A DNA stretch of 32,883 nt from Hoeflea sp. (GTDB lineage Bacteria > Pseudomonadota > Alphaproteobacteria > Rhizobiales > Rhizobiaceae): assembly GCF_030682515.1 (NCBI RefSeq), contig NZ_JAUXOD010000101.1:1-32883 (forward strand), written 5' to 3'. A program made the translations under genes and the position numbers. The first letter of the stretch is position 1, and every line of letters starts with the position of its first letter. Shown piece by piece: positions 9,250 to 32,476 of the stretch. The notes below the pieces were generated by a model. It was not told the DNA's origin. It was given only the letters and a program-made list of their open reading frames with translations, and ran no database searches.

Positions 9250-9266
9250 GAGACACCTGTTTTTTT

Positions 9267-9311
9267 TGAGCAATTGCTCAGAAAAATAGGCCGATCGTGG
9301 CGCGACGTCAA
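9267..9311 (-). promoter_or_regulatory. Promoter and palindromic operator of the Rieske gene
   Basis: Read on the minus strand, TTGACG (9306-9311) and TATTTT (9283-9288) are spaced by exactly 17 bases. Directly after the -10 lies a perfect 14-bp palindrome TGAGCAATTGCTCA (9267-9280), with A/T runs mirrored outside it. A repressor bound there would cover the start of transcription. The sequence differs from the TGAACGTTCA site at 378, so a different regulator is likely. Confidence 0.65.
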
Positions 9312-9331
9312 GTCACGGCCGAGACCTCAGC

Positions 9332-9883: not shown

Positions 9884-10174
9884 CTCGACTGTGGCTCCTG
9901 AAGGGATAACGTCAGCTCCTGGAAAGGCGGCCCGCGGTTGATCCAGACCTGTACAACACCTGCCGGGCCAGAATGTTCCAGCCATGGGCGCGGGTCAACC
10001 GCCCGAAGGCTCCGGCAACACCCCCGCGCCCAGGCTGGTCATGCCCCTCGCAATCGGCATCGGAGCCGGGGACGCGCGGTTGGCGGCGCAGCGGTGCCCG
10101 CATCGTCGTTGTCCGCGCGATCGGCGGAAAAATTCGCGCGCCGTTCGGAACGATCACGCGGAGAGGCCGTTGAC

Positions 10175-16796: not shown

Positions 16797-17128
16797 GGAT
16801 GCTGAGCGCGCAAACCAGGCCGCTGGCGATGCTTCTGGCGGGATTTGTGCTGTGGGCCGGGGCGTTTTTGCTGATCTACTTCACGCAGGCGACCGGGTGC
16901 AGCCTTGGCTGGCAGGAGATCGAGGTTTTCGGGGGGCTCACCTTGCAGCGCGGTTCGCTGGTGGGGCTCTATCTGCTGGCCTGCGGGATGCATCTCGGGC
17001 TGATCGCGGGCTTCGGACGCGGCGATGCCGGCTCGTTTACCCATCGCACCGGCCGCCTTCTCTCCATCGCGGCCCTCGGGGCCAATGTCTTCTGCTTTGG
17101 AGGCGTGCTGTGGCTGACGACCTGCTGA
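16793..17128 (+). CDS. Small membrane protein of the oxidase operon
   Basis: A 111-residue protein with three hydrophobic segments (LAMLLAGFVLWAGAFLLIYF, GSLVGLYLLACGMHLGLIAG, LSIAALGANVFCFGGVLWL). It is not recognised as a named subunit. Its ATG overlaps the end of the subunit I+III gene, so it is almost certainly co-translated. Oxidase operons often encode a short accessory membrane protein like this. A role as a small oxidase subunit or assembly factor is inferred from position only. A second ATG two codons later is equally possible. Confidence 0.7.
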   Translation: MRMLSAQTRPLAMLLAGFVLWAGAFLLIYFTQATGCSLGWQEIEVFGGLTLQRGSLVGLYLLACGMHLGLIAGFGRGDAGSFTHRTGRLLSIAALGANVFCFGGVLWLTTC

Positions 17129-17190
17129 GGGCCGCGTCCGGCGTGACCCGATCGACATCGAAACCCTTGTCGAAGCGGTGAGGACCCAGT

Positions 17191-17622
17191 TTATTGGGTC
17201 GACATGTGACGCTGGCCGTCCTCGGGTCCATGGTCGTGAGAGCCCACGCCCGTATCGGGCGCGTTGCCCGGGGACTTGTCGATCAGATCCATCAGCAGAT
17301 CGGCCAGTCGGTCATAGTCGAGCGGTTTGGCCAGGCAGGTCACGGCATCGCCGAGCCGCGCAGACTGCGCCGCGGTGCTGCCGCCCAGCGCCACGATCGG
17401 GATTGCCCGCCGGCGAAGGGACAAGGCGATCCCCTGCGTCGTGAGGTCAGGTCCATGCAGGTCGAGAATGGCGGCTTCGCAGGGATGGGACTGCGGCCAG
17501 GTCCGTTGCTCGTCCGGTTTCATCGGCACAACCGCGAAGCCCCGGGCTTCCAACTCGCACAGCATGTCCACGACCAGCATGGGTTCGTCGGCAACAAGCA
17601 GAATCGTCGGGCTTCTATCCAT
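17191..17622 (-). CDS. Stand-alone response-regulator receiver protein
   Basis: A 143-residue single receiver domain with no output domain. The acidic pocket is D12-E13 (LLVADEPML), the phospho-acceptor is D54 (AILDLHGPDL), and the conserved lysine is K99 (CLAKPLD). The position normally held by Thr or Ser appears to be glycine (IVALGGST), which is unusual. The chosen ATG has GGAGG seven bases upstream, and the frame before it is not receiver-like. Single-domain receivers often act by binding a partner protein or as phosphate sinks. No histidine kinase gene is adjacent. The C-terminal 20 residues (HDHGPEDGQRH) are His/Asp-rich. Confidence 0.78.
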   Translation of the reverse strand: MDRSPTILLVADEPMLVVDMLCELEARGFAVVPMKPDEQRTWPQSHPCEAAILDLHGPDLTTQGIALSLRRRAIPIVALGGSTAAQSARLGDAVTCLAKPLDYDRLADLLMDLIDKSPGNAPDTGVGSHDHGPEDGQRHMSTQ

Positions 17623-17855
17623 GGGCAGGCCTCCGTCATCAACAATCGACAGTGCAAGAGCGCGTCCATTGCCGGAAATCCACCCCCCAACAGATGTCAA
17701 GGTAAACTCACCGCCCGCCGGTTTAAAGCCCCCGGTTGTGCTGGAGGCGCAAGCAGAGCCGGTATCTGACTTTTAGCCACTTGCAAAATAATCACCACTT
17801 ACTAACTTGTAGCAGCAATGCAGGTCTGGCTTTTATCAGCGCAGGGGTTCAGCAC

Positions 17856-18074
17856 ATGTACCGCGAGAGAAACGAGCGTCTACAGATCATGGTGTCGCCT
17901 GAAGAACTGAGCGCGCTGGACGACTGGCGCTTCTTGCAGCGGATGCCCAGCCGCGCCTCGGCCGTGCGCGAGCTGCTGCGCCGCGGCCTTCGCGCCGAAG
18001 GGGTGGAGATTGCAGAGGCGCATGAGAAGTCGAGCGACTTCGGCGTGCTTGAGAAACGCACGGACGGTCAGTAG
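17856..18074 (+). CDS. Small ribbon-helix-helix-like protein
   Basis: A 72-residue basic protein. ERLQIMVSPEELSALDDWRF and SRASAVRELLRRGLRAEG give the strand-helix-helix order of a ribbon-helix-helix domain, a DNA-binding fold of small regulators and antitoxins. The ATG is preceded by AGGGG at good spacing. The 230 bases before it, toward the divergent receiver gene, contain an AT-rich patch around 17765-17815 that could hold promoters, but none is clear. No toxin gene is adjacent, so a plain regulator is more likely than an antitoxin. Target unknown. Confidence 0.68.
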   Translation: MYRERNERLQIMVSPEELSALDDWRFLQRMPSRASAVRELLRRGLRAEGVEIAEAHEKSSDFGVLEKRTDGQ

Positions 18075-18086
18075 CCGGGGGCAATC

Positions 18087-18118
18087 GCCGCGGCCCCATC
18101 CTGCGGGGCTGCCGCGGC
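18087..18118. terminator. Hairpin between convergent genes
   Basis: GCCGCGGCCCC pairs with GGGGC...CGCGGC, leaving a three-base bulge and a short loop, and CTCTTT follows on the plus strand. It lies between two converging small genes and could end both transcripts. Confidence 0.55.
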
Positions 18119-18122
18119 TCTT

Positions 18123-18476
18123 TCAGGCGTCGGTGACGAGACCACGCGGACCCTCGGCTGCGGCATCGGATTCCAGGACGACGTGGTAGAGCTTGTCGTC
18201 GCGAAAGGCGCTGGCGAAATCGGTGGTGGTGCCGTCGCCCGGCTTTGCGCCGATGTCGAGAAAGTCGATCTCGGCCGCAGCCGCGACAATACGGGCGTCA
18301 GCGGGCGACAGGGCCCTGACCCGGACTTCGCCGTGACCAGGCGCATTGTCCCATCGCGGATCGTTCGGCGCGGCGCTTGGGATCAGCCGATAGATCTTCA
18401 GGTCTCCGCCGAGTTGATCGGCACGCGCTGTCATGTCGAGGGTTCCGACCGTCGGCTGAGCTGGCTTGTCGTGCAT
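18123..18476 (-). CDS. Hypothetical cytosolic protein, 117 residues
   Basis: Not recognised. The protein is soluble, has no signal peptide or membrane segment, and is mildly acidic. It contains the segments DQLGGDLKIYRLIPSAAP, GEVRVRALSPADARIVAAAA and FRDDKLYHVVLESD, which suggests an alternating strand/helix fold. The chosen ATG (MHDKPAQP) has GAGGAA nine bases upstream; the frame continues 52 codons upstream in R/P-rich sequence that looks non-coding. Neighbours (small regulator, glycine-zipper lipoprotein) do not suggest a function. Confidence 0.62.
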   Translation of the reverse strand: MHDKPAQPTVGTLDMTARADQLGGDLKIYRLIPSAAPNDPRWDNAPGHGEVRVRALSPADARIVAAAAEIDFLDIGAKPGDGTTTDFASAFRDDKLYHVVLESDAAAEGPRGLVTDA

Positions 18477-18588
18477 GATCTCGGTTCCTCTTCTGGGCGT
18501 CTTATCGTCACGGAGAACGGTTGAGCAGCGCCGGCGTGTGGCCGTTCTTCCGGGGCCGGCGGCGGGTGCCGGCCCCAGAGGGAGGGGA

Positions 18589-18843
18589 TTACTGGCAGGC
18601 GGCCTGGTAACGGCGGCCGTTGCGGTCTTCATAGATGCAGACGCCGGGTTCGCTGGCGCGGCCGATCAGATTGCCTGCAACGGCACCAACTGCGCCGCCG
18701 ATCACTGCGCCTTGCAGCGGGTTGCTGGCGACCACGGCGCCAACCGCGGCACCCGAGGCGCCGCCGATCGCTGTGCCGCGCTCGGTGGCTGTGCAGGCGG
18801 TGAGTGTCAGGGCGGCGAAGGCCACGACGAGAAGTTTAGTCAT
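18589..18843 (-). CDS. Glycine-zipper lipoprotein
   Basis: An 84-residue small lipoprotein. The signal peptide ends in the lipobox LTAC with the modified cysteine near residue 17. The mature part is glycine/alanine-rich with repeated GxxxG spacing (GTAIGGASGAAVGAVVAS and GAVIGGAVGAVAGNLIG), the glycine-zipper pattern of outer-membrane-associated small lipoproteins. The tail GVCIYEDRNGRRYQAAC carries two cysteines that could form a disulfide. The role is probably structural, in the envelope; family members are often stress-induced. It is followed by a 205-base gap toward the CBS-domain gene in which I see no gene. Confidence 0.82.
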   Translation of the reverse strand: MTKLLVVAFAALTLTACTATERGTAIGGASGAAVGAVVASNPLQGAVIGGAVGAVAGNLIGRASEPGVCIYEDRNGRRYQAACQ

Positions 18844-19048
18844 TGGAATGCTCCTTTGGTTACCAGGGTCAAACCCCTGACACTGGCAAAGGTTTCATCC
18901 TCGCCCGATTTATTTCGGGGCGGAAGCGATTGCTGGCCGGCTGCGGGCGCGTTGGCGCACCCGGCGCGGCGCGAAACCGGAGTTCAACGGTAGCCATGCG
19001 GTCCAGGGGAGCGACGCGGGAACCCTGGCGCATCGATGCCTCAGCGTC

Positions 19049-20116: not shown

Positions 20117-20325
20117 TGTCGACCTCTGGCTCGCTCACAAATGGCTTGCGCGCAGTTCGAGCCCCTCACCACGCATGCAGGCCAACGCCCCGACAAGGGT
20201 TTTGTTCCGACCCGCGCCATCCCGTGCGCCGCGCCCCATGGCGCTCATGACCCGGCGCCGCTGATACTTTAAAATGGGAACAATTCTCCCGGCGCCGCGT
20301 TTGAAATCAAAACCGGGAGGTGAAC

Positions 20326-21060
20326 GTGACGTTACTGACACGCCGCGCAGCGTTGAACATCTTGCTGCTGGGAGGCACCGCGCTTGCCGCGCCAGCGGTT
20401 TTCGCCCGGGAGATGGGGCGCGGGGAGGGGATGCCGTGGAAGCCCTTCACGGGAGCGGTTCCCTATTACGGGACCGGGACAGAACGCTTCTTCACCGCCG
20501 CCGAGCGGACGGCTGTCGCGGCGATCTGCGCCCGGCTCATCCCCAGCGACGACGACGGTCCCGGCAGCACCGAAGCCGATGTCGTCACGTTCATCGACCG
20601 GCAGATGGCGGGCTTCTACGGCCGCGGCCAGACCTGGTACATGAAGGGTCCGTTCGCCAAAGGCGCGTCAACCCAGGGCTACCAGAGCGAACATGCGCCG
20701 GCGATGCTCTACCGCCTGGCGCTTTCGGAACTCGACCAACATTGCCAGCAAGCGCATGGCGCGGGCTTCGCCGAGCTGCCAGTCGCCGATCAGGACGCGA
20801 TCCTTGCGGCCCTCGACGACGAGGAACTCACCTTCGAGAGCGTTTCGGCCAAGACCTTCTTCGACCTGATCCTCGAGAACACGATCGAGGGCTTCTTTGC
20901 CGATCCGATCTACGGCGGCAACCGGGACATGGTCGGATGGCGCTATGTGGGCTTCCCCGGCGTTCGCTACGACTACCGCGACTTCGTCAACCACAACGGA
21001 TCTCCGATCCAGCTCGAACCGGTCAGCCTGACGGGCGGGCCCGGCTGGTCAAGAAACTAG
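20326..21060 (+). CDS. Gluconate 2-dehydrogenase-type subunit 3 (gamma), Tat-exported
   Basis: About 244 residues. The N-terminus TLLTRRAALNILLLGGTALA followed by APAVFA is a twin-arginine signal peptide with cleavage near AxA. The body (FFTAAERTAVAAICARLIPS, DVVTFIDRQMAGFYGRGQTW, ENTIEGFFADPIYGGNRDMV followed by GWRYVGFPG) is the signature of gluconate 2-dehydrogenase subunit 3. This small chaperone-like subunit carries the FAD catalytic subunit through the Tat system. GTG at this position has GGGAGG five bases upstream and is preferred to a GTG six bases earlier that overlaps it. It is the first gene of the three-subunit dehydrogenase operon. Confidence 0.9.
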   Translation: MTLLTRRAALNILLLGGTALAAPAVFAREMGRGEGMPWKPFTGAVPYYGTGTERFFTAAERTAVAAICARLIPSDDDGPGSTEADVVTFIDRQMAGFYGRGQTWYMKGPFAKGASTQGYQSEHAPAMLYRLALSELDQHCQQAHGAGFAELPVADQDAILAALDDEELTFESVSAKTFFDLILENTIEGFFADPIYGGNRDMVGWRYVGFPGVRYDYRDFVNHNGSPIQLEPVSLTGGPGWSRN

Positions 21061-21083
21061 ACTGACTGATCGAAGGGACAATC

Positions 21084-22844
21084 ATGACCAAGCAAATGCC
21101 AGGCGTCGATGTCGTGTTGGTGGGGTTCGGCTGGACCGGCGCCATCCTCGCCGAGAAGCTGACCGCGGCCGGGCTGGAGGTGCTGGCGCTCGAGCGCGGG
21201 CCCTGGCGTGACACGCCCACGGATTTTCCCACGACCTTCGCCCAGGACGAGCTGCGCTTCTACTGGCGCCACGCCATGTTCCAGGAAGCATCGCAGGAAA
21301 CGCTGACCTTTCGCAACAATGGCGCCCAGGACGCCCTGCCGATGCGGCGGTGGGGTTCGTTCCTGCCCGGCACCGGCGTCGGCGGCGCCGGCGTCCACTG
21401 GAACGGCCAGACCTATCGTTTCCTGCCGTCCGATTTCGTCGCCCGCAGCCACAACGAGGAGCGCTACGGCGCGCTGCCCGAGGACATGACCATCCAGGAC
21501 TACGGCGTGACCTATGAGGAGCTGGAGCCGCATTTCGACTATTTCGAGAAGATCTGCGGGATCAGCGGACAGGCCGGCAATGTCAATGGCGCGCGCGTCG
21601 AAGGCGGCAATCCGTTCGAGGGCATGCGCAGCGACCATTACCCGAACCCGCCCATGCAGATGACGTTCTCGCAGGACCGGTTTGCCGCTTCGGCGAAAGA
21701 ACTGGGGCTCAACCCGTTCCCGGTTCCCTCCGCCAACATGTCCCAGGCCTATGTCAACCCGCTCGGCATGCAGCTTGCCCCCTGCACCTATTGCGGCTTC
21801 TGCGAGAAATACGGCTGCGGCAACTACTCGAAAGCCACGCCGGAAACCACGCTCATTCCGGCCATCATGCGGCGGCCGAATTTCACGTTGCGAACGCTCT
21901 GCGAGGTGCTGTCGGTGGAAAAATCCGCCGACGGGTCGCGCGCGAAGGGAGTCACCTATGTCGACGCCCACGGCGAGAGCTTCTTCCAGCCGGCCGAAAT
22001 CGTCGTGCTGTGCGCCTATCCGCTGCAGAACACGCGGCTGCTGCTGCTCTCCGGCATCGGCCAGCCCTACGATCCTGCGACAGGCGAGGGCGTGGTCGGC
22101 AAGAACTACTGCTACCAGGTGATGTCGTCGGTCAACGTGTTCTTCGAGGACGAATACACCAACGGCTTTGTCGGCGCCGGCGCCCTCGGCATGGCTGTCG
22201 ACGAGTACAATGGCGACAATTTCGACCATTCGGGGCTCGGCTTCATCGGCGGCGGCTACATCGCCTGCCACACGACCAATGCCCGCCCGATCGAAAGCCA
22301 TCCGGTTCCCGAGGGCGCGCCCAGCTGGGGAGCAGAGTGGAAGCGTGCTGTCCGACAGAATTTCCTCAAGACCACCAGCGTCGGCGTGCACGGCGCGTCG
22401 ATGGCGCATCGCAGCAACTACCTCGATCTCGATCCGACCTACACCGACCGGTGGGGCCGGCCGCTCCTGCGCATGACCTATGACTTCACCCTCAACGACC
22501 GCCGGCTGACGCGGCACCTGACCCCCGTCGCCGAGCAGATCGCCCGCGGCATGGGCGGCCGCGAGGTAAAGGTGAACACGCGCCGCGGCTCCTATGATTC
22601 GATGCCCTACCAGACCACCCACAACACCGGCGGCACGATCATGGGCACCGATCCGGCCACCAGCGTGGTCAACCGCTACGGCCAGAGCTGGGATCTCGAC
22701 AACCTGTTCATCACCGGCGCGGGCCTGTTCCCGCAGAACGCAGGGTACAATCCGACCGGGACCGTGGCGGCGCTCGCCTACTGGTCGGTCGAGGCGATGA
22801 TCACGCAGTATCTTCGCGCGCCCGGCCCGCTGGTGCAGACATGA
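21084..22844 (+). CDS. GMC-family FAD dehydrogenase, large subunit, with cysteine cluster
   Basis: A 586-residue flavoprotein. The FAD-binding motif VVLVGFGWTGAILAEKL with E at LALERG is at the N-terminus; the GMC C-terminal signature is at LFITGAGLFPQNAGYNPTGT. It has no signal peptide and should be exported with the Tat-bearing subunit. Cysteines C234, C237, C240 and C245 (CTYCGFCEKYGC) match the cluster of membrane-bound fructose and glucose dehydrogenases that hold a [3Fe-4S] centre; a cluster here is inferred. The enzyme oxidises a sugar, sugar acid or polyol in the periplasm and passes electrons to the triheme subunit, whose ATG overlaps this stop. The substrate could be gluconate, glucose, fructose or another polyol. 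Confidence 0.9.
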   Translation: MTKQMPGVDVVLVGFGWTGAILAEKLTAAGLEVLALERGPWRDTPTDFPTTFAQDELRFYWRHAMFQEASQETLTFRNNGAQDALPMRRWGSFLPGTGVGGAGVHWNGQTYRFLPSDFVARSHNEERYGALPEDMTIQDYGVTYEELEPHFDYFEKICGISGQAGNVNGARVEGGNPFEGMRSDHYPNPPMQMTFSQDRFAASAKELGLNPFPVPSANMSQAYVNPLGMQLAPCTYCGFCEKYGCGNYSKATPETTLIPAIMRRPNFTLRTLCEVLSVEKSADGSRAKGVTYVDAHGESFFQPAEIVVLCAYPLQNTRLLLLSGIGQPYDPATGEGVVGKNYCYQVMSSVNVFFEDEYTNGFVGAGALGMAVDEYNGDNFDHSGLGFIGGGYIACHTTNARPIESHPVPEGAPSWGAEWKRAVRQNFLKTTSVGVHGASMAHRSNYLDLDPTYTDRWGRPLLRMTYDFTLNDRRLTRHLTPVAEQIARGMGGREVKVNTRRGSYDSMPYQTTHNTGGTIMGTDPATSVVNRYGQSWDLDNLFITGAGLFPQNAGYNPTGTVAALAYWSVEAMITQYLRAPGPLVQT

Positions 22845-24076
22845 CCCGGCCCGGCTCGATCTTCACGGCGATGGCGATCATCGCGGCCACCGGTGCGGCG
22901 GGCGTCGCGACCGCCCAGGAACTGTCCTATTCGCAGACCGAACGCGGCCGCTACCTCGCCACCGCATCGGACTGCATCGGCTGCCACACGGATGTGGAGG
23001 GCGGCGGCGTGCCGTTCGCCGGCGGCCGCGGGCTCGAAACCCCGTTCGGGATCATCTATTCCGCCAACCTGACGCCGGATCTGGAGACGGGTCTCGGGAA
23101 ATGGACGCGGGAGGAGTTCTACCGGGCGCTCAACGAAGGCGTGAACCGCCATGGCCAGCATCTCTATCCGGCCATGCCCTATCCCTATTTCACGCTGATG
23201 CCGCGCGACGATGTCGATGCGATCTACGACTATCTGCAGACGCTTGAGCCGGTGCATGCGGAGGCGCCGGAGCACGAGCTGCCATTTCCGCTCAGCATCC
23301 GCCAGTCGGTGGCCGGGTGGAAGATGCTCTATTTCGAGGACAAGCAGTTCGTGGCCGATCCGGACCAGTCGGCGGAATGGAATCGCGGCCGCTACCTTGT
23401 GGACGGTCCGGCCCATTGCGGCGCCTGCCACACCGGGAAGACCATGTTCGGGGCCGATGACGAGGACGAGTATCTCCGTGGAGGCGCCCTGGAGAACTGG
23501 TTCGCACCCAATATTCGCGGTGGCGAGAATGGCGGCATTGCCCATTGGGAGGCCACCGACATCGTCGAATTCCTGCGCGACGGCCGGTCGCGGCATACGG
23601 CGCCGATGCAGAGGATGGGCGAGGTCGTCTATTTTTCGACCCAGCATCTCCACGACGACGATCTGGACGCGATCGCCACCTACCTCAAGAGCCTCCAGGA
23701 CCCGGCCCGGGAGGCCAGCGACAGGCCCGACGAAGCCCGCGTCGAGACGGGCGCCGCCATCTACTTCGACAATTGCGCGGCCTGCCATGCGGCGGACGGG
23801 ACCGGCGTGTCGCACATCTTTGCCTCGCTCAAGGACTCCAACAAGCTGGCTTCCGAGGACTTGTCGACCGTGATCCGCATCATCCTCGGCGGCGCGCGGG
23901 CCGAGCCGACGGAGGCAGCACCTGCCATGATCGCCATGCCGCCATTTGCCTGGAAGCTGACCGACGGGCAGATCGCCGATGTTTTGACCTATCTGCGCCA
24001 GGCTGGCGACGTGAAGGCCGGACCGGTCTCTGCCTCGACGGTGGCCGACATGCGCGCCTACCTTCAAGACCAATGA
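22841..24076 (+). CDS. Triheme cytochrome c subunit of the FAD dehydrogenase
   Basis: A 411-residue periplasmic cytochrome c with three CXXCH heme sites: CIGCH at 45-49, CGACH at 193-197 and CAACH at 312-316. A signal peptide is visible (IFTAMAIIAATGAAGVATAQ). The spacing and sequence around the sites (GRYLATASDCIGCH; GRYLVDGPAHCGACH; GAAIYFDNCAACHAADG) are those of the alcohol/gluconate dehydrogenase cytochrome c subunit. It takes electrons from the FAD/Fe-S subunit and hands them to the membrane quinone pool or oxidase. It overlaps the large subunit by ATGA. No C-terminal membrane anchor is obvious, so membrane attachment may depend on other contacts. Confidence 0.93.
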   Translation: MTRPGSIFTAMAIIAATGAAGVATAQELSYSQTERGRYLATASDCIGCHTDVEGGGVPFAGGRGLETPFGIIYSANLTPDLETGLGKWTREEFYRALNEGVNRHGQHLYPAMPYPYFTLMPRDDVDAIYDYLQTLEPVHAEAPEHELPFPLSIRQSVAGWKMLYFEDKQFVADPDQSAEWNRGRYLVDGPAHCGACHTGKTMFGADDEDEYLRGGALENWFAPNIRGGENGGIAHWEATDIVEFLRDGRSRHTAPMQRMGEVVYFSTQHLHDDDLDAIATYLKSLQDPAREASDRPDEARVETGAAIYFDNCAACHAADGTGVSHIFASLKDSNKLASEDLSTVIRIILGGARAEPTEAAPAMIAMPPFAWKLTDGQIADVLTYLRQAGDVKAGPVSASTVADMRAYLQDQ

Positions 24077-24678: not shown

Positions 24679-24744
24679 CCTCGCCTCGTCGGCGGACCCG
24701 AGGCGAGGCAAGGGGCCCGGAGCTGGCTGGACAGCTCCGGGCCC
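24679..24744. terminator. Tandem hairpins between convergent genes
   Basis: Two perfect inverted repeats follow one another: a 10-bp stem CCTCGCCTCG/CGAGGCGAGG (24679-24708) and a 12-bp stem GGGCCCGGAGCT/AGCTCCGGGCCC (24713-24744) with an 8-base loop, followed by TGTCTT. They separate the dehydrogenase operon from the convergent aztD gene and probably stop both transcripts. Confidence 0.78.
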
Positions 24745-24757
24745 TGTCTTCATCGCA

Positions 24758-25996
24758 TCAGTGCGAAGCGCCCGAACCGCCGACGGCGACGATCGAGAAG
24801 GGCTGGCCTTCGACAGCAATCGTGCGCGTTTCCTCGAGGGTGCCCGCATCGAAGACCCGCACGAGCGAGTGCCGGGGATCAGTGATGGCGATCTGTCCGT
24901 CGACCACCGCAAGACGCGGCCGCGGATCGCGCCAGTGGCCGTCCTTGCTGTAGGGCTCTGTGACATTGGCCTTGGCGACGATTTCAGCCTTGATGACATC
25001 GAGAACATGCAGGTCGCCATCTTCCGTCAGGATATAGGCGTTGCGCGGCGTCGCCGGATCGAGCGTGAAATCGACGCGCCGGGTCGGAAGCTCGATCAGG
25101 CGATAGGGCTGCGCATTGTCCGGATCGATCAGCACGATCTTGTCCTCTCCATAGTTGCCGAGAAAGAACTGCATGGCCGTTCCGCCGAGCAGCGTGCCGG
25201 TGTGCGCTTTGGGAAATTCGGACGGGTAGGGGATCATCTCCAGCTTCGGTCCGTCGAGGCCGCCCGGCCGGGCGACAAGAACGCCTTCCTTGCACCCGAA
25301 GGCGACAAGGCGGGCCGAGGTGGCCTCGCCGTGGAGGTCGGTGCAGGGGGCGATGTCGCCCACCTGCTCGCCGGTCTCGTCGACGACGCGAAGACCGACG
25401 CGCGGCGGCAGTTCATCCGGTTTCGTTTCAATGTCCGTGTTAGGCACCGAGACAAGCACGTAGCTGCCCATGGTAACGGCCACACCATGGTGGGGTTTGG
25501 TGGTGTCGACCGATCTGACTTCCGCCTTGCCTTCCAGCAGAGCCGCCTCGTCGATGATGTCGGCCTTGCCGCCGCGATCGTAGAACAGGATGGCGTGATC
25601 GCCGTGCGGGACCACGTGGCCCGGGCGCCCGCCTTCAAACGTCACGGGCAGAAGCGCGGGATCGGACACCTCGAGATCGCGGTGTTCGCCGTGGTCGGAG
25701 AAACGGATGCCGGTCTTGATGGCATGCACGATGCCGGCCTCGGTCTGCGCGGCGAAAACGGTCTGTCCCGAGGCGCTGGCCGTCAGGGCGGCATAGCCCT
25801 TGAGCTCGTATCGGCCAAGTTCTTCGCCGGTTTCAAGATCGATGACGCGAACCAGAGGCTGGGTGTGGTCGGCGACGAAGATGCGCCATGCCTCCGTCGT
25901 GTCCTGATCCGTGTCCGCCATCGCGCCGGGGACCAGGAACAGCGTGGTGACTGCCAAGGCGGACAGCAACTGGTTTCGGAGTAGAGACAATCTCAT
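24758..25996 (-). CDS. aztD: Periplasmic zinc metallochaperone AztD
   Basis: A 412-residue secreted protein that looks like a beta-propeller. The signal peptide is LLSALAVTTLFLVPGAMA. The mature start AWRIFVADHTQPLVRVIDLE followed by TGEELGRYELKG, and the metal-type cluster IRFSDHGEHRDLEVSDPALL, PGHVVPHGDHAILFYDRGG and TTKPHHGVAVTMGSYVLVSV, match AztD. AztD is the zinc chaperone that loads the AztC binding protein in Paracoccus. The histidine-rich segments are the likely zinc sites. The chosen ATG has AGGA at good spacing; an upstream in-frame ATG adds 13 basic residues and is less likely. No aztABC genes are in the window. It stands divergent from a B12-riboswitch importer operon, with a shared inverted repeat between. 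Confidence 0.82.
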   Translation of the reverse strand: MRLSLLRNQLLSALAVTTLFLVPGAMADTDQDTTEAWRIFVADHTQPLVRVIDLETGEELGRYELKGYAALTASASGQTVFAAQTEAGIVHAIKTGIRFSDHGEHRDLEVSDPALLPVTFEGGRPGHVVPHGDHAILFYDRGGKADIIDEAALLEGKAEVRSVDTTKPHHGVAVTMGSYVLVSVPNTDIETKPDELPPRVGLRVVDETGEQVGDIAPCTDLHGEATSARLVAFGCKEGVLVARPGGLDGPKLEMIPYPSEFPKAHTGTLLGGTAMQFFLGNYGEDKIVLIDPDNAQPYRLIELPTRRVDFTLDPATPRNAYILTEDGDLHVLDVIKAEIVAKANVTEPYSKDGHWRDPRPRLAVVDGQIAITDPRHSLVRVFDAGTLEETRTIAVEGQPFSIVAVGGSGASH

Positions 25997-26098
25997 TGGT
26001 TTCTTCCTTTTTTTGACAACGGCTTGGCGTTCCATGGGGTCCGCCCGTCACGCGGCGTAACTGTTCGACATAGTCCCGGCCGCGGCTATTTGAAATAA

Positions 26099-26139
26099 AT
26101 GTTATTACGTTACGTTTCTGTTGACGAACGTAATAACAT
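26099..26139. promoter_or_regulatory. Inverted repeat in the divergent aztD/importer promoter region
   Basis: A perfect 13-bp inverted repeat, ATGTTATTACGTT ... AACGTAATAACAT, with a 15-base spacer. TTACGTT is also repeated directly at 26110. The left arm with its flank (AAATGTTAT, then TTACGTTTC) resembles a Zur-type box of the form GAAATGTTAT-N-ATAACATTTC, as expected before a zinc chaperone gene. Assignment to Zur is inferred; the symmetry itself is seen directly. Confidence 0.7.
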
Positions 26140-26149
26140 CACATAGACA
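26121..26149 (+). promoter_or_regulatory. Promoter of the riboswitch-importer operon
   Basis: TTGACG (26121-26126) and TAGACA (26144-26149) are spaced by 17 bases, a good sigma-70-type promoter reading toward the riboswitch. The 17-base spacer begins with the right arm of the inverted repeat (26127-26139), so a protein bound to that arm would occupy the promoter. Confidence 0.6.
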
Positions 26150-26366
26150 ATCGCTGTCAACCCCGGAGGCGGCGATGAACGATCTTTGTCTGGACTCAAA
26201 CACTCTGGCGCCTGGCAGTCAGGCCGAAACCTTTGCGCCCCAGCTGGCCGGCGGGATTTCGGCGCGCAAGGTGCTTCTGGAGCCGGCGCGGCCAGATAAG
26301 GCCGGTTGCGAAAGCGGAAGCCAACTCCGCCTTGACTGGCGCTCAGCTTCTGCTCTAACTGGCCGT

Positions 26367-26570
26367 GACGGTTCCCCTACCCAAGAAGTGGAGGGGAATA
26401 ATAGGGAACACGGTGCGGATGACCCGAATGGGGCCAAAACCGTGGCTGCCCCCGCAACTGTAAGCGGATTGCCGTCCACCCTCGTGGCGCGAAAGCGTCA
26501 TGCCACTGCACCAGATGGTGCGGGAAGGCAGGTGGACAGCAGATATTCGTGAGCCAGGAGACCTGCCGTC
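26367..26570 (+). promoter_or_regulatory. Cobalamin (B12) riboswitch
   Basis: The conserved core of the B12 aptamer is present in order. The P1 stem is GACGG (26367) with CCGTC (26566). Then come GGGAACACGGTGCGGATGAC, CCGCAACTGTAAGCGG, the B12-box heptamer GCCACTG (26502-26508), GGGAAGGCAGGTGGA and AGCCAGGAGACCTGCC. It binds adenosylcobalamin or a related form and lowers expression of genes downstream when B12 is plentiful. A short CAGGC/GCCTG hairpin (26590-26605) and the AGGAG at 26610 could be part of the expression platform. A short open frame from 26175 across the aptamer is a shadow. The 200 bases between the promoter and the aptamer contain no gene that I can support. Confidence 0.95.
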
Positions 26571-26620
26571 ACCCATCGATCCACAGTCACAGGCGGGGTT
26601 GCCTGGAACAGGAGCATTGA

Positions 26621-26704
26621 ATGAAGATCATCAGCGCCTCACAGCGCGACCTCGCGCTTCTATTCCCCGATTCTGCCGATTGTCCGATCGCGCGGATGGC
26701 CTGA
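26621..26704 (+). CDS. 27-codon leader ORF between riboswitch and importer
   Basis: An ATG with a strong AGGAG ribosome binding site, six bases upstream, opens a 27-residue peptide that starts MKIISASQRDLALLFPD and ends IARMA. It lies 50 bases after the aptamer and 64 bases before the binding-protein gene. It has no repeated-residue stretch of the attenuator type. A riboswitch that hides this ribosome binding site would control this ORF first. Whether the peptide matters or is only read through is unknown. Confidence 0.4.
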   Translation: MKIISASQRDLALLFPDSADCPIARMA

Positions 26705-26768
26705 CCGCCTTCCGTGCCGTTCCTTCATGCCGTCTTGTGCGGCTCATAGTCATATTCGGGGATTTTCC

Positions 26769-27794
26769 ATGATATTTTTTTCCAGAACGCCGTTTAGGGC
26801 GGCCGTCCTTCTTGCGTCTTTCGTACCTGCCGGCTTCGCTGCCCAGGCCGCGGAGACTGTCTATCCGCTGACCCTTGAAAACTGCGGCCGGCAGGTGACC
26901 CTCCAGGCCGCGCCTTCGCGGACCGTCGCCATCGGCCAGAGCAGCACCGAGATCCTCTATCTGCTGGGCCTCGCCGACAAGGTCGCAGGCACCGCGCGCT
27001 GGGTCGGTCCGGTGCTCAAGGGCTATGAGGAGGTCAATGCCGGCGTCCACCGCCTGGCCGACAATGATCCGAGCTTCGAGAGCGTGCTGGCCCTCAAGCC
27101 CGACATGATCGCCGTCCAGTTCCAGGGCCAGGTCGGCCCGGAAGGGGCTGTGGCCACGCCCGAGCAGTTCGAGGAGCTGGGCATTGCGGTCTACACCTCG
27201 CCGTCCGATTGCGTCGGCAAGGAAAATGCCAATGCCGGCGACGGCGTGCGCCACCAGGTCTTCACCATGGATCTTGTCCATCGGGAAATCCGCGATCTGG
27301 CGCTCATCTACAATGTCCAGGACAAGGGCGAGGAGGTTGTCGCCGACCTCAAGCAGCGCGAAGAGGCAGCCCGCGCGACGATCGCCTCGGCCGAGGGCAA
27401 GCTTTCAGCGGTGTTCTGGTTCTCGAGTGCCGCGGACGCCGATCCCTATGTGGCAGGGAAGAACGGCGCGTCCGCCTACATCATGTCGGCGCTGGGCATC
27501 GAGAACATCATCACCACCGAGGAGGAATGGCCGACGGTGGGCTGGGAAACCATCGCCAAGGCCGCGCCGACCTTGATCGTCGCCGGCGCGATGGAGCGCC
27601 GCCGCCATCCGCAGGACAGTCTTGAGTCCAAGCTCGACTTTCTCAAGTCCGATCCGGTTGCAAGCCTGATGCCGGCGGTGACCAACGGCCATGTGTTCGC
27701 CATGGACGCGCAATCCATGAACCCGACGATCCGGACGATCGAGGGGATCGAGGTGCTGGCCGACAGCATCGCCAAGGCTGGCCTGGCCAAATGA
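26769..27794 (+). CDS. Periplasmic substrate-binding protein, BtuF/FecB type
   Basis: A 341-residue periplasmic binding protein. The signal peptide (FRAAVLLASFVPAGFAAQAA) is cut before ETVYPLTLENCGRQVTLQAA. The first half, AIGQSSTEILYLLGLADKVAG and ESVLALKPDMIAVQFQGQVG, has the pattern of BtuF and siderophore-binding proteins of the class with a rigid helix between lobes. The second half includes IIATTEEEW-like VGWETIAKAAPTLIVAGA (WETIAKAAPTLIVAGA). ATG with GGGGA upstream is the sensible start. It serves the permease and ATPase that follow with ATGA overlaps. B12 control suggests cobalamin or another corrinoid; a metal chelate is the alternative, given aztD next door. Confidence 0.87.
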   Translation: MIFFSRTPFRAAVLLASFVPAGFAAQAAETVYPLTLENCGRQVTLQAAPSRTVAIGQSSTEILYLLGLADKVAGTARWVGPVLKGYEEVNAGVHRLADNDPSFESVLALKPDMIAVQFQGQVGPEGAVATPEQFEELGIAVYTSPSDCVGKENANAGDGVRHQVFTMDLVHREIRDLALIYNVQDKGEEVVADLKQREEAARATIASAEGKLSAVFWFSSAADADPYVAGKNGASAYIMSALGIENIITTEEEWPTVGWETIAKAAPTLIVAGAMERRRHPQDSLESKLDFLKSDPVASLMPAVTNGHVFAMDAQSMNPTIRTIEGIEVLADSIAKAGLAK

Positions 27795-28819
27795 GCCGTG
27801 TCCCGCACTCGACGGGACGGACGGGCGCGGGCTTAGCCGCGCTCGTCATTCTCGTGGCGGCGCTGTGGATGGGGGCTGCAATCGGTGAAACATCGATCCC
27901 GTTTTCGACCGTCGCGCAGACCATCGCCAACCGGCTGTGGAACGCCGGCTATCCGCTGGAGCCGATCGACGAGGGCATTGTCTGGAGCTACCGGCTGAGC
28001 CGCGCGGTGATCGCGGCTGCCTGCGGCGCCGCGCTGGCGCTGTCGGGGGTGGTGCTGCAGTCGCTGCTGCGCAACCCGCTGGCCGACCCCTATCTGCTGG
28101 GCATTTCCGCGGGCGCCTCGACCGGCGCGGTCAGCGTCGCGATCCTCGGCGTGGGCGCCGGCTACCTGACGCTGCCGCTCGGCGCCTTCATCGGCGCCGT
28201 CGTGGCCTTCGCGCTGGTCAGCCTGCTGGCGCTCAAGGCCGGGCGGGGCACTGCGGCGATCATCCTGGCGGGCGTCGCCGGGTCGCAGCTGTTCAATGCG
28301 CTGACCTCGTTCATCGTCACCAAGGCGGCCACGGCGGAGCAGGCCCGCGGCATCATGTTCTGGCTGCTCGGAAACCTGTCGGGCGTGCGCTGGCCCGACG
28401 CCTGGCTGGCGGTGCCGGCGGCCCTCGTGGGCCTCGTCGTGTGCATCTGGCACGCCCGTGCGCTCGATGCCTTCACCTTCGGCTCCGAATCGGCGGCAGC
28501 GCTCGGCATTTCGGTGCGGCGCACCTATTTCGTCCTCGTCGGGATCGCAGCGATGATGACCGCCGTCATGGTCTCGATCGTCGGATCGATCGGCTTCGTC
28601 GGCCTCGTCATTCCCCATGCCGCGCGCCTGATCGTGGGGGTCCGCCACGGCGTGCTGCTGCCGGCGTCCGCCCTGATCGGCGCGGTCTTCATGATCCTTG
28701 CCGACATCCTGTCGCGCACCATCATCCCCGGCCAGGTGCTGCCGATCGGCGTCATCACCGCGCTGGTCGGCGCGCCCGCCTTCGCCCTGATCCTCGCCCA
28801 AAGGAGGGAGCGCGCATGA
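27791..28819 (+). CDS. ABC transporter permease, BtuC/FecCD family
   Basis: A 342-residue inner-membrane permease of the FecCD family with about nine to ten hydrophobic segments. Diagnostic motifs are RLSRAVIAAACGAALALSGV, LQSLLRNPLADPYLLGISAG with ASTGA (the family start-region signature) and VGSIGFVGLVIPHAARLIVG near the C-terminus, the loop that docks on the ATPase. The ATG overlaps the binding-protein stop and the end overlaps the ATPase start (ATGA on both sides). It moves large ligands such as cobalamin, heme or siderophores. The exact ligand is not visible. Confidence 0.94.
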   Translation: MSRVPHSTGRTGAGLAALVILVAALWMGAAIGETSIPFSTVAQTIANRLWNAGYPLEPIDEGIVWSYRLSRAVIAAACGAALALSGVVLQSLLRNPLADPYLLGISAGASTGAVSVAILGVGAGYLTLPLGAFIGAVVAFALVSLLALKAGRGTAAIILAGVAGSQLFNALTSFIVTKAATAEQARGIMFWLLGNLSGVRWPDAWLAVPAALVGLVVCIWHARALDAFTFGSESAAALGISVRRTYFVLVGIAAMMTAVMVSIVGSIGFVGLVIPHAARLIVGVRHGVLLPASALIGAVFMILADILSRTIIPGQVLPIGVITALVGAPAFALILAQRRERA

Positions 28820-29634
28820 TTCTTTCGGCCAGCCAAGTCTCCTGGTCCGCCGGCGGGACCGAGATCCTCAGGGACATCACGCTTGCGGTCGAGGCGGGCG
28901 AGTTTCTCGGCATCATCGGCCCCAACGGGTCAGGCAAGACGAGCCTGATGGCGCTGCTCTCGGGCATCCGAAAGCCGCGGTCGGGCGAAGTGATGCTCGA
29001 TGGCGCGCCGATCGGGTCTTTGGGCCGGCGCGCCGTCGCCCAGCGCCTGGCGCTGGTCGAGCAGCAGGCCGAGACCGGCGAGCGGATCACCGCGCGGCAG
29101 GCGGTCGAGATCGGCCGCACGCCCTATCTCGGGCCGCTGACGCCCTGGTCGGCGGAGGACGACAGGATCGTCGACGCCGCGCTCGCCAATGTCGACATGG
29201 CGCATCTTGCGGGACGGACCTGGCACACGCTGTCGGGCGGCGAGCGCCAGCGGCTGCATATCGCCCGCGCCCTTGCCCAGCAGCCGGACATCCTGCTGCT
29301 CGACGAGCCGACGAACCATCTCGACATCGGCCACCAGATCAGCCTGCTCGACCTGGTGCAGCGGCAGGAACTCACCGTGGTGGCGGCGCTGCATGACCTC
29401 AATCATGCGGCGATGTATTGCGACCGGATCGCGGTGATGCAGTCAGGCCGCCTGGCAGCACTCGGCCGGCCCCGCGATGTGCTGAGCGTCGAGCTCATTC
29501 GCGACGTGTTCGGCGTCGACGCGGAGATCGAGCTCGACGAGGGCGGGCTCTGCCACCTGCGCTTCCTGACGCAGCGGTCGCAGGGGCGCGTCAAGGCCGT
29601 GCGGCCGGCCCTTCGGTCCGCGCTGGGGAGCTGA
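28816..29634 (+). CDS. ABC transporter ATP-binding protein, BtuD/FecE type
   Basis: A 272-residue ATPase. Walker A GIIGPNGSGKTSLM, signature LSGGERQRLHIARALAQQ, Walker B DILLLDEPTNHLD and H-loop VVAALHDLNHAAMYCDRIAV are intact. ARQAVEIGRTPYLGPLTPWS is the helical-domain sequence typical of FecE/BtuD proteins. The ATG overlaps the permease stop; a longer open frame upstream in this frame is a shadow of the permease. The C-terminus (VFGVDAEIELDEGGLCHLRF) is the usual short regulatory end. It completes the three-part importer. Confidence 0.94.
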   Translation: MILSASQVSWSAGGTEILRDITLAVEAGEFLGIIGPNGSGKTSLMALLSGIRKPRSGEVMLDGAPIGSLGRRAVAQRLALVEQQAETGERITARQAVEIGRTPYLGPLTPWSAEDDRIVDAALANVDMAHLAGRTWHTLSGGERQRLHIARALAQQPDILLLDEPTNHLDIGHQISLLDLVQRQELTVVAALHDLNHAAMYCDRIAVMQSGRLAALGRPRDVLSVELIRDVFGVDAEIELDEGGLCHLRFLTQRSQGRVKAVRPALRSALGS

Positions 29635-29639
29635 GGCCG

Positions 29640-30425
29640 ATGGACATGCGCAATCACGATCTCAAGGAAGACATCCGCGACTACTGGTCGGAGCGTTCCA
29701 GGAGCTTCGATCACGACTTCGGCCACCGCATTCCCCAAGGGCCGGAACACGATGCCTGGGCCAGGGCGGTGCGCGAAGCGATCGGTCCGGAGCCGAAGAA
29801 GGTGCTCGAGCTTGCCTGCGGCACCGGCGAGGTGACCCGGGTTCTGCTGTCGCTCGGCCATGAGGTGACGGGGCTCGACTTCTCCGAAGCCATGCTCGGC
29901 GTCGCCCGCGCCAAGCATGAAGGCAACGGGCGGGCGCGCTTCATCCTGGCCGATGCCGAACGCACGATGGAGCCCGGGGAAACCTATGACGCGGTGATCT
30001 GCCGGCATCTGGTGTGGACGCTGACCGAACCCGAGCGGGCGCTCGACGACTGGTTCAGGGTGCTCAAGCCCGGCGGCCGGCTCGTCATTTTCGACGGGGA
30101 CTGGGCGAGGCCCACGCAAGCGGGGCGGCTTGCGGCCCTTGGGATCCGGCTGATCGAGCGCTTCACCGGCGCCGATCCCCAGTCCGACGCCGCCATGAGC
30201 CGGAGGCATGCGAGCATCATGGCGCGGCTGCCGTTCTGCGAGGGGCTGACGGCCGAACGGCTTCGTCCGCTTGCGCAAGACGCGGGCTTCGAGGCCATCC
30301 GCACGCCCTCGCACCGGCCGATCACCGCCGCCCAGCGCCGGACCGCCACGCTGCGAGACAGCCTGCGCACCCGGGTCTACCGCCGCTTCATCCTGGTCGC
30401 CTCCCGCCCCACGGCTGCGCCATAG
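29640..30425 (+). CDS. Class I SAM-dependent methyltransferase of the B12-controlled operon
   Basis: A 261-residue methyltransferase that starts five bases after the ATPase stop, so it belongs to the importer operon. Motif I KVLELACGTGEVTRVLLSLG binds SAM, with the acidic residue at VTGLDFSEAML. Motif II is YDAVICRHLVWTLTEPERAL and motif III RVLKPGGRLVIFDGDW. An N-terminal IRDYWSERSRSFDHDFGHRI helix precedes the fold. It is not similar in detail to CobI-type B12-ring methylases (class III), so it is not one of the corrin-pathway enzymes. It probably modifies the imported ligand or a chelator. That role is inferred from operon context. Confidence 0.83.
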   Translation: MDMRNHDLKEDIRDYWSERSRSFDHDFGHRIPQGPEHDAWARAVREAIGPEPKKVLELACGTGEVTRVLLSLGHEVTGLDFSEAMLGVARAKHEGNGRARFILADAERTMEPGETYDAVICRHLVWTLTEPERALDDWFRVLKPGGRLVIFDGDWARPTQAGRLAALGIRLIERFTGADPQSDAAMSRRHASIMARLPFCEGLTAERLRPLAQDAGFEAIRTPSHRPITAAQRRTATLRDSLRTRVYRRFILVASRPTAAP

Positions 30426-30709: not shown

Positions 30710-30797
30710 AGCTCTCCCCCACACCGGCTAACCCACTGAACCCCTTGCAAAACAAGCATTCCGCCGCCACTCTTGGGGCAGAACGGTGGGGCAGAGC

Positions 30798-32207
30798 ATG
30801 GGCAAAGCTAGTTTTCTTGAGTTTCATGGCGGACAGTGGCGAGCACGGGTGGCGGTGCCGGTCAGACTTCAGGAGATCGTCGGAAGGACGGTCCTTAAAA
30901 AGGGGCTGCACACCGCCGACCTGACAACCGCCGAGCAATTGAAGTGGCCGCACATAGCAGCCTTCAAGGCCTATCTGGCAGACGCGGCGCGGGCGTTGGA
31001 AACCCAAGACCCTGTAGAAGCGGAAGCACTCAAAGCCCGCCTCGTACTCGCAGAGATACCGGAAGACGAGCGGGGCCGGGATGTTAAAGGGCCGGGAGTA
31101 GACGACGCCGTGCGGGCAACTCCGAGCCGATATGAGGTGCTTCATGACGGCGTTATTGAGCGGGCCTACCAGTTGGAGAAGACGCACGGCTTTGCGCGGG
31201 CGAAGGCATATGTGGCCATTGCCACCGGAGCACAGACCCCCCTTCGTCATCACGCCGATGATTTCATAGCCCAGTGGGGCGTCAAGGATAAAACCGCGAG
31301 CGACTTCAAAAGGGCCTTAGAGTGGCTGTGTGACTGGCTACGCGCCGCACCCCTCCCCATCACCGTTGAGGCAGTAACCCGGCGTGCAGCCGGGGATTTT
31401 ATCGTGCAGAGCCTTGAGGCAACGAGAAGCGCCAAAAAGGCTAAGTCCTACCTCGCCTTCCTCCGCGCCTACTGGGAGTATCTCGACAGGCGGGGGGCGC
31501 TGACGAGCGGAAACCCTTGGTTAGGCCAGCGTATATCGAAGGCCGCGCAGGTCCGCTCCAGAAGCCAGATAGCCGAGGAGAAGCGCCCGTTCACAGACGA
31601 GGAGCTAGCCGCCCTCTTGTCCAATTGCGGCGCTGACCCGGAGCTTCTCCTTGCCATGCACATAGCGGCCTTGGGCGGGATGCGGATTGAGGAAATATGC
31701 AGGCTCCGCCTATGGGATTGCTCCGGGGGTGTTTTCAGCGTCCGCGAGGGGAAGACCGTCAACGCTGTACGGCAGTTCCCAATCCACACCCGCCTTGCCG
31801 ATACAGTCGCCGCACGCGTCAAAAAGGGGAACCGGGATGACTACCTAATCCGGGGGCTCCGCGAGAGCACCCCGTCGAGCCCCCAGCGCTCCCACCCTTT
31901 GGTAAAGCGCTTTACCCGCTACCGGAGGAAGGTCGGGGTGGGGAGCGGCAGGAGTGAACACTCGTCCGTAGACTTCCATTCGTTTCGCCGCTGGTTTGCA
32001 CGGAAAGCACGGGACGCCATGCTAGCAGGGGACGCCGGATTTGATGAATGGACCCTCACTTGGATCATGGGGCACACGGACAAGGACCGGCCCAAATCCG
32101 TTGAGTTGTCCCAAAGAGGCTACGCCGGGATGGACCCGATGGAAGCCAAGCGCCGCCTAATAGAAGCTATTCAACTACCACCTCAAACAGGAGAAACGCA
32201 GCAATGA
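30798..32207 (+). CDS. Tyrosine-type site-specific recombinase (integrase)
   Basis: A 469-residue phage-type integrase. Catalytic residues can be placed in the C-terminal domain: R in GGMRIEEICRLRL, H and R in DFHSFRRWFAR, H in IMGHTDKDRP and the tyrosine in SQRGYAG. The central segment (ADDFIAQWGVKDKTASDFKR and RSAKKAKSYLAFLRAYWEYL) is the core-binding domain. The N-terminus (FLEFHGGQWRARVAVPVRL and onward) is an arm-type region as in large integrases of genomic islands. The ATG is used; an in-frame GTG 12 bases earlier is possible. It lies close to an att-like repeat that resembles a tRNA 3' end. Codon use is less GC-rich than in the chromosome. Confidence 0.92.
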   Translation: MGKASFLEFHGGQWRARVAVPVRLQEIVGRTVLKKGLHTADLTTAEQLKWPHIAAFKAYLADAARALETQDPVEAEALKARLVLAEIPEDERGRDVKGPGVDDAVRATPSRYEVLHDGVIERAYQLEKTHGFARAKAYVAIATGAQTPLRHHADDFIAQWGVKDKTASDFKRALEWLCDWLRAAPLPITVEAVTRRAAGDFIVQSLEATRSAKKAKSYLAFLRAYWEYLDRRGALTSGNPWLGQRISKAAQVRSRSQIAEEKRPFTDEELAALLSNCGADPELLLAMHIAALGGMRIEEICRLRLWDCSGGVFSVREGKTVNAVRQFPIHTRLADTVAARVKKGNRDDYLIRGLRESTPSSPQRSHPLVKRFTRYRRKVGVGSGRSEHSSVDFHSFRRWFARKARDAMLAGDAGFDEWTLTWIMGHTDKDRPKSVELSQRGYAGMDPMEAKRRLIEAIQLPPQTGETQQ

Positions 32208-32368
32208 TGACTTTCCGCATTTTCGGCCATGAATTCGGCATCGAGTTCTGGAGCAACCCACTCCGGATACAGGACTGGCAGCTAGGCCAGGAGCGCCTTG
32301 GGGACGCTTTCCAGACCCGGCTTTATTGGTTCGGACCGGCCCACGTCGCCGTCTGTAAGCCCGCGTGA
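32204..32368 (+). CDS. Small protein overlapping the integrase stop
   Basis: A 54-residue ORF whose ATG overlaps the integrase TGA (ATGA), with AGGAG about ten bases upstream, so it is probably translated. It begins MMTFRIFGHEFGIEFWSNPL and is rich in aromatic residues (four W, seven F, one Y). It was not recognised. Excisionase or recombination-directionality factors are often encoded beside integrases, but no winged-helix motif is clear here, so no function is assigned. A second ATG directly follows the first. Confidence 0.5.
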   Translation: MMTFRIFGHEFGIEFWSNPLRIQDWQLGQERLGDAFQTRLYWFGPAHVAVCKPA

Positions 32369-32476
32369 AGCACTTCCGACAGTTCGGCGTAAATTCCCAA
32401 ATCTTTACAATGGCTTGGAATTGAGTATTGTTCTGAATAAAGAATCACACTCCGTTTTGAACTACAAAGAGGCACC

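Follow-up and report, generated by a model that had tools for sequence, protein, structure and literature searches.

Zur-like boxes and a cobalamin riboswitch were found together upstream of part of a family of alphaproteobacterial B12-type importers, including an importer of Hoeflea sp. that is encoded next to a zinc chaperone gene. The locus lies on contig NZ_JAUXOD010000101.1 (32,883 nt; this whole stretch is referred to as the window), where aztD is divergent from an operon encoding a substrate-binding protein, a permease, an ATP-binding cassette (ABC) ATPase, and a methyltransferase, preceded by a cobalamin riboswitch (Table 1). This arrangement, proposed originally from the nucleotide sequence, is confirmed by matches to NF038015, RF00174, and Pfam families. 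Based on motif comparisons, dual control of the importer family by Zur and the B12 riboswitch is considered likely, and the recurrent combination of both elements, which reaches beyond the window, appears to be the result of main interest. The earlier suggestion that zinc status and B12 status meet at this locus gains comparative support, inasmuch as the predicted elements recur upstream of the importer family.

Zur-Like Boxes Upstream of aztD and of the Importer Family

A Zur-like pattern (TGTTA-N5-TAACA, at least 8 of 10 matches) was observed near the aztD start in 76 of 98 entries, duplicates included (expected: 0.057 per entry); the scanned stretch began 350 bp before the aztD match and reached 60 bp into it. 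From 68 unique sites of this kind, window excluded, a 19-position matrix was built, which describes aztD promoters and not proven Zur sites. The motif agrees in kind with the 15-bp palindromic Zur motif published for Rhizobiales (PMC7029138, PMC12183173). In the window, the matrix identifies two Zur-like boxes at 26098–26145; the next best position scores 13.4, and a score of at least 18 was reached in 1 of 200 mononucleotide-shuffled windows. The only window site with 8 of 10 pattern matches (26100–26114) lies in box 1.

Importer loci, 61 in number, were then scored with the matrix over the 800 bp in front of the binding-protein gene; they comprise the window, 47 homologues with at least 48% identity (rounded), and 13 homologues below this value. 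Boxes scoring at least 20 were found in 16 of the 47 close homologues and in none of the 13 more distant ones (Fisher p = 0.013). For comparison, 69 cobalamin-riboswitch loci without the importer were taken from relatives (29 among the best-scoring riboswitches and 40 picked stretches, three of the latter from the window's own genome), two of which have a box of at least 20 within 900 bp of the locus centre (p = 6.6e-6 for 16/47 versus 2/69). When importer loci were collapsed by hand to genera, 12 out of 32 carry a box (p = 1.1e-5 versus the uncollapsed 2/69), and without L186 (fetched loci are denoted by L numbers) the count is 15/47 (p = 1.8e-5); these tests correct only partly for relatedness. 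At a score of at least 14, the importer upstream regions contain 21 sites in 20 of the 61 loci, window included, with 0.9 expected; outside of these regions the same loci contain 19 such sites in 1.04 Mb, corresponding to 0.015 per 830 bp. Weak boxes, which are not among the 16, occur in L177, L047, and L244 (14.8–17.3) and in L247 (approximately 14.0). Of the two boxed riboswitch loci that lack the importer, L311 is followed by a gene that is cbiX-like by eye.

Several observations weigh against control of the importer by Zur. No box of score 20 is present in 31 of the 47 close homologues, nor in the 800 bp before the importer in L033 and L035, and the importer loci of Paracoccus denitrificans, P. 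yeei, and Cereibacter carry no Zur-like box. Furthermore, the box of L186 is more likely to belong to the divergent GTPase gene, and boxes situated 400–600 bp upstream (L174, L199, L232, and L240) could serve another gene.

Arrangement of Boxes and Riboswitches

At least 36 of the 47 close homologues have an upstream riboswitch, 31 detected by a B12-box pattern and 5 more by Rfam. The Rfam search covered 8 of the 16 pattern-negative loci and revealed an aptamer near the importer in five of them, and additionally one approximately 0.7 kb upstream in L237; thus, the pattern misses aptamers. For 12 of the 16 boxed loci the riboswitch occurs in the same upstream stretch, confirmed by Rfam for L174, L175, L181, L240, L241, L249, L250, L251, and L252 and by pattern only for L199, L232, and L254. 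The riboswitch of L178 lies at a distance of 4 kb, and the search of L185 gave none.

The box precedes the aptamer by 29 bp in L175, 50 bp in L181, 109 bp in L240, and 190 bp in L174, and overlaps the aptamer 5' end in L252. In L249, L250, L251, and L241 it follows the aptamer at a distance of 139–195 bp. A box in front of the aptamer would result in AND-like control, and a box behind it in an independent zinc-controlled promoter. In the window, 207 bp separate the end of box 2 from the aptamer. It is an evenly balanced proposition that a family of alphaproteobacterial importers integrates Zur at the DNA level and the cobalamin riboswitch at the RNA level in at least two geometries, with the window showing how such dual control can arise by a deletion that joins the Zur promoter of a lost zinc transporter to a B12-riboswitch operon.

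The importer homologue on pSymB of Sinorhizobium meliloti (L199; laboratory strain 1021/2011) is also preceded by a Zur-like box and a B12-box pattern, the latter at approximately 32250–32450 of the locus (pSymB approximately 66.25–66.45 kb). On pSymB, the importer begins to appear at approximately 66.6 kb, the box occupies 66119–66137, and the pattern is located near 66.44 kb. Due to the overlap with this pattern, the candidate small RNA B31 (66313–66506, SMb20055/SMb20056), labelled "Repeat sequence" (PMC2780559), is probably a cobalamin riboswitch.

Origin of the Window Locus by Deletion

The same gene order, aztD-GTPase / aztA-aztB-aztC-GTPase-small open reading frame (ORF)-riboswitch-importer-methyltransferase, was observed in L033 (Rhizobium rhizolycopersici), L035 (Hoeflea marina, of the same genus as the window), and L337 (Sinorhizobium chiapasense). 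In the latter, the cobalamin riboswitch is located at 11608–11839 of the locus, and the methyltransferase match is split in two pieces where no gene is annotated. Three main pieces of the window align with L033 by blastn: 24715–26009 with 8662–9956, 26097–26194 with 11029–11127, and 26329–29994 with 15336–19000. The middle piece, 83% identical, covers the boxes of the divergent promoter region together with the beginning of aztA, whose start codon and following codons are still visible in a four-way alignment.

Compared to the L033 layout, two parts are missing from the window. The first, approximately 1.1 kb with the GTPase gene, is replaced by 87 bp of other sequence, the second, approximately 4.2 kb with most of aztA, aztB, aztC, the second GTPase gene, and the small ORF, by 134 bp; neither segment has a significant match among the fetched loci. 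The pairing of aztD and importer in the window is thus almost certainly an eroded locus, judged by synteny, and the adjacency as such is an ordinary deletion, by which the aztD/aztA boxes came to lie 207 bp upstream of the riboswitch.

Table 1. Genes and elements of the aztD-importer locus (window coordinates)
Feature	Position	Strand	Evidence
aztD, zinc metallochaperone gene	24758–26035	minus	NCBIfam NF038015
Zur-like box 1, AATGTTATTACGTTACGTT	26098–26116	none	Matrix score 24.5, top in window
Zur-like box 2, AACGTAATAACATCACATA	26127–26145	none	Matrix score 18.9, second in window
aztA 5' end remnant	26175–26194	plus	blastn and four-way alignment
Deletion scar	26195–26328	none	No significant match in fetched loci
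Putative riboswitch promoter (TTGACT, 16 bp, TCTAAC)	26332–26359	plus	Alignment; presumed promoter
Cobalamin riboswitch aptamer	26352–26584	plus	RF00174, 126.9 bits (gathering threshold 31.5)
Putative leader ORF, 27 codons	26621–26704	plus	Kept in relatives
Substrate-binding protein gene	26727–27794	plus	PF01497 (Peripla_BP_2), 160.5 bits
FecCD-family permease gene	27791–28819	plus	PF01032, 286.5 bits
ABC ATPase gene	28816–29634	plus	PF00005 (ABC_tran), 121.8 bits
Class I S-adenosylmethionine methyltransferase gene, ATG at 29640	29640–30425	plus	PF08241 (Methyltransf_11), 83.3 bits, scanned as 29418–30422

The window genome is a draft of 144 contigs with 98.9% completeness, and aztABC might have been lost in the assembly instead of in the organism. 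This is highly improbable: it would take two separate joins, the genome-wide search, which covered AztA and AztC, gave no match above the family cut-offs, and the 87- and 134-bp scar sequences are without significant match in the fetched loci. Misassembly through a repeat was ruled out, since the junction (25990–26340) occurs once in the genome. A split locus with aztABC elsewhere, as considered in the original prediction, was likewise ruled out by the absence of AztA and AztC matches over cut-off and by the synteny of the relatives. The accompanying statement that the window lacks AztABC genes holds for AztA and AztC matches over the cut-offs, but the first codons of aztA remain from 26175 on. 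The best AztC-family matches of the genome reach 191 bits (cut-off 350) and were assigned, by eye and by their neighbours, to a ZnuA-type gene (contig 68) and to a further metal binding protein (contig 87).

Conservation of the aztD-importer neighbourhood, which bears on the original prediction, gave a mixed result: the importer is present in the fetched stretch around aztD in a minority of the distinct aztD loci (7 of 95, window included), albeit on several separate tree branches. The importer follows aztD in R. sullae (L123), R. mongolense (L127, with a riboswitch by pattern only), and isolate AFS040727 (L124), whereas in G086 (L047) it is found downstream of the whole aztABCD set. The AztD tree, which has 93 rows, places the window in an 8-row clade (98/93 support) together with four aztABC-linked and three solitary rows. 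Labelled as aztABC are 18 of the 93 rows (L064 on weak hits), and a solitary label can reflect a contig end; left out of the tree were L086 as well as L036 and L088, which represent a single locus with an in-frame stop. The aztD gene of L132 is alphaproteobacterial and is paired with that of Pseudochrobactrum, although its contig bears the label Bacillus subtilis SK6B4, probably due to contamination or mislabelling.

Proposed Regulation of the Window Locus

As a whole, an account of the window as the deletion remnant of a zinc/B12 cluster, with Zur-box and riboswitch control of a corrinoid importer, seems reasonably probable to us. The ancestral cluster would have been aztD-COG0523 GTPase / Zur boxes / aztABC-GTPase-small ORF-riboswitch-importer-methyltransferase. 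Loss of the GTPase gene between aztD and the boxes, and a second loss from most of aztA through the small ORF, would have left a functional-looking orphan AztD and Zur boxes close to the riboswitch. Zinc-loaded Zur would repress the bidirectional promoter; under zinc starvation aztD would be made and transcripts from the old aztA promoter could extend into the B12 leader, in which the riboswitch would permit synthesis of the importer only at low B12. The importer also retains its own promoter-like sequence. The same importer would have come under Zur-like boxes plus a riboswitch in several alphaproteobacterial families, and it most likely takes up a corrinoid. The genes, the deletion, the box motif, the riboswitch, and the family-wide association are observed; Zur binding, read-through, the substrate, and AztD as a periplasmic zinc store without AztC are parts of this account that we infer.

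That dual control is effective in the window itself falls just short of an even call. The adjacency may be an accident of the deletion with no regulatory effect, the importer being transcribed from the riboswitch promoter only and aztD being a relic or serving ZnuA, a real possibility to which we give somewhat less than even weight. It fits the 207-bp distance, the common occurrence of solitary aztD genes in the Rhizobiaceae, and the retention of the promoter-like sequence TTGACT/TCTAAC of the riboswitch, kept in L035 and in a weaker form in the alignment of L033 and L337. It does not account for the recurrence of boxes upstream of the riboswitch in other importer loci, and AztD passed no zinc to ZnuA in P. 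denitrificans (PMC6689063).

The ORF between riboswitch and binding-protein gene has a conserved, ribosome-binding-site-like GGAACAGGAG. Its product has 27 amino acids in L033, L035, and L337 as well and 30 in S. meliloti L199, and possibly represents a leader peptide.

Substrate of the Importer

Like cobalamin-riboswitch-controlled BtuFCD-type importers, the operon is preceded by an RF00174 aptamer and encodes a Peripla_BP_2 protein, a FecCD permease, and an ABC ATPase. It differs from them by the methyltransferase as fourth gene, by Zur-like boxes in part of the family, and by scores below the NCBIfam cut-offs. On account of the riboswitch control and the cob/cbi gene neighbours of homologues, a corrinoid is somewhat favoured as substrate. 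Homologues in P. yeei adjoin cobO and DUF1636-cobW-cobN, and those in Cereibacter azotoformans are flanked by cbiM and cobyric acid synthase genes. In P. denitrificans (L335) the order is riboswitch, binding protein, permease, ATPase, a cupredoxin-like gene, and a methyltransferase-like stretch (36%), which, matched by order alone, fits pden2980–2984. Of these, pden2980, 2981, 2982, and 2984 are up 1.5–2.2 fold in low zinc (PMC5387054).

The assignment to a corrinoid importer has to contend with several findings. The BtuFCD cut-offs of NCBIfam are missed (BtuF 28.3 versus 234 bits, BtuC 231 versus 461 and 202 versus 334, BtuD 118 versus 281). The low-zinc induction in P. denitrificans is not specific, since many iron/B12-type transporters rise 1.5–4 fold under this condition (PMC5387054). 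Moreover, the window genome seems by eye to hold B12-synthesis genes, so that no need for corrinoids is evident. Zinc sparing, in which B12 import would allow zinc-rich MetE to be replaced by MetH, was rejected as a rationale, because the genome has no full-length MetE (76.5 bits, cut-off 930). In S. chiapasense a 10.4-kb gene with an amino acid adenylation domain, similar to nonribosomal peptide synthetase (NRPS) genes, is located approximately 3.5 kb from aztD (its end at 1–1375 of L337), and possible metallophore synthesis by its product favours a chelate as substrate.

Under such a reading, the importer carries a zinc or cobalt chelate (metallophore), Zur and the riboswitch both answer to a shortage of the imported metal, and the methyltransferase acts on the chelator. 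Dual control would suit a metal source for both uses, and the predicted fold and sequence of the binding protein are compatible with the siderophore/heme/B12 class. The binding protein and ATPase share with the siderophore transporter EitABC their top NCBIfam match, EitA being a named siderophore binding protein, but differ from it in scoring below the cut-offs (EitA 326 versus 640 bits, EitC 292 versus 485 bits). The methyltransferase gene, furthermore, stays with azt genes where the importer was not found, as last gene of the aztABC run in L067 (5002–5817) and divergent from aztD in L085 (9002–9880), a hint to a zinc-linked role. Considering that apart from the S. chiapasense gene no chelator biosynthesis gene was recognised by eye in the neighbourhoods viewed, and that the Rhodobacterales homologues lie among cobalamin synthesis genes, we regard a chelate as unlikely and the corrinoid as the better candidate.

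The structure does not decide between the substrates: the binding-protein model (mean predicted local distance difference test score 74.6) matches heme, siderophore, and BtuF binding proteins alike, with 4mlz, which has no named ligand, as top match. For the function of the methyltransferase, NCBIfam and Pfam gave generic family matches alone, and the score against the CpaM corrinoid-protein methyltransferase (NF043040) is 73 bits with a cut-off of 180. The A. tumefaciens sequence H219, a short binding-protein gene without a permease beside it, was not used.

AztD without AztABC

AztD of the window exceeds the NF038015 cut-off (421 versus 400 bits), has homologues in the PDB (6cmk/6n01 and 6ck1), and retains all zinc ligands, H115, H118, D120, and H425 as well as H140, H183, and H235 (positions after PMC6689063). 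In these respects it resembles AztD of the AztABCD system of P. denitrificans, and the Zur-like boxes resemble the aztA promoter region of close relatives, which hold the same gene set. In contrast to this system, the window lacks aztB, aztC, and aztA beyond its first codons, and aztD is divergent from the importer. Because the same start is seen in L033 and L337, the conserved start of aztD is probably 25996 (MRLSL...) and not 26035.

Pairwise ratios of nonsynonymous to synonymous substitution rates (dN/dS) for aztD are 0.11 versus L033 and 0.15 versus L035, with a range of 0.07–0.16 over eight pairs including the window; L033 versus L035 gives 0.11. With dS of approximately 1 or more, near saturation, these ratios are rough. 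By this measure and by its ligands the orphan AztD looks constrained and functional. Our best guess is that it acts as a zinc store or buffer without AztC. A role as periplasmic zinc reservoir has been suggested for AztD (PMC7731109), and zinc transfer from AztD to ZnuA did not occur in P. denitrificans (PMC6689063). Many aztD genes with Zur-like boxes have no aztABC nearby, which raises the question of an AztD role without AztC more generally. Nearly half of the AztD genes are reported to have a ZnuA-family gene in the vicinity, and CobW-family genes are often close by as well (PMC6689063).

Relation to Known Zinc and B12 Regulons

As a rule, zinc supply and B12 supply are assigned to separate regulons, and the recurrence of box and riboswitch on one importer predicts their coupling. 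If true, zinc starvation would license the uptake of a corrinoid or a cobalt/zinc complex, with the pSymB homologue of S. meliloti as a model-strain case. The locus shares with the Zur regulon of Rhizobiales (znuABC, COG0523 GTPases) the palindromic 15-bp core upstream of aztD and of many importer homologues, and differs in that membership of the importer is predicted from motifs only.

No description of a dual Zur/B12-riboswitch control was found in the literature searched, including PMC2770081, PMC7689651, PMC5387054, and PMC7029138; supplements, subscription papers, and RegPrecise were outside this search, and some of the Zur sites may therefore have been predicted earlier. The view that the arrangement had not been described agrees with this result, outside of the neighbourhood diagrams for 577 AztD sequences in a supplement of the 2019 AztD paper.

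Other Zinc-B12 Neighbourhoods

By pattern, a cobalamin riboswitch is present in the fetched stretch of 14 of the 95 distinct aztD loci, window included, and the window genome contains five cobalamin riboswitches. Contig 68 of this genome (L051) bears a znu-type locus, assigned by eye and by its neighbours. It is arranged as zur-znuBC / znuA, followed further on by a ZigA-like GTPase gene, a cobalamin riboswitch, a gene that by eye is DUF1636-like, and the genes of a second B12-type importer. On contig 68, in L035, and in L186, a B12-riboswitch importer is immediately preceded by a ZigA-like GTPase gene; the related GTPase of L033 scores 595 bits (ZigA cut-off 600). This adjacency bears on the long-noted tangle of zinc-related COG0523 GTPases and CobW. 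Parts of the contig 68 arrangement occur in three genomes of the same genus (L283, L285, and L286), with no Zur-like box of score 10 near those riboswitches.

In the Rhizobium loci L098, L109, L114, and L128, a riboswitch pattern is followed by nrdE-nrdF-like genes (by eye) that are divergent from a solitary aztD with Zur-like boxes. The nrdE gene of L098 was confirmed, three of the four loci contain an nrdI-like gene, and L110 is similar by position only.

Further genes of the window flank the aztD-importer region. At 20320–24076, a gluconate-dehydrogenase-like trio of small subunit, GMC-type oxidoreductase, and cytochrome c was recognised by eye and by weak matches, the small subunit being without a family match. 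Directly 3' of the importer operon, a tyrosine recombinase gene with a DUF6538 domain (30786–32207) possibly marks the border of a mobile element.

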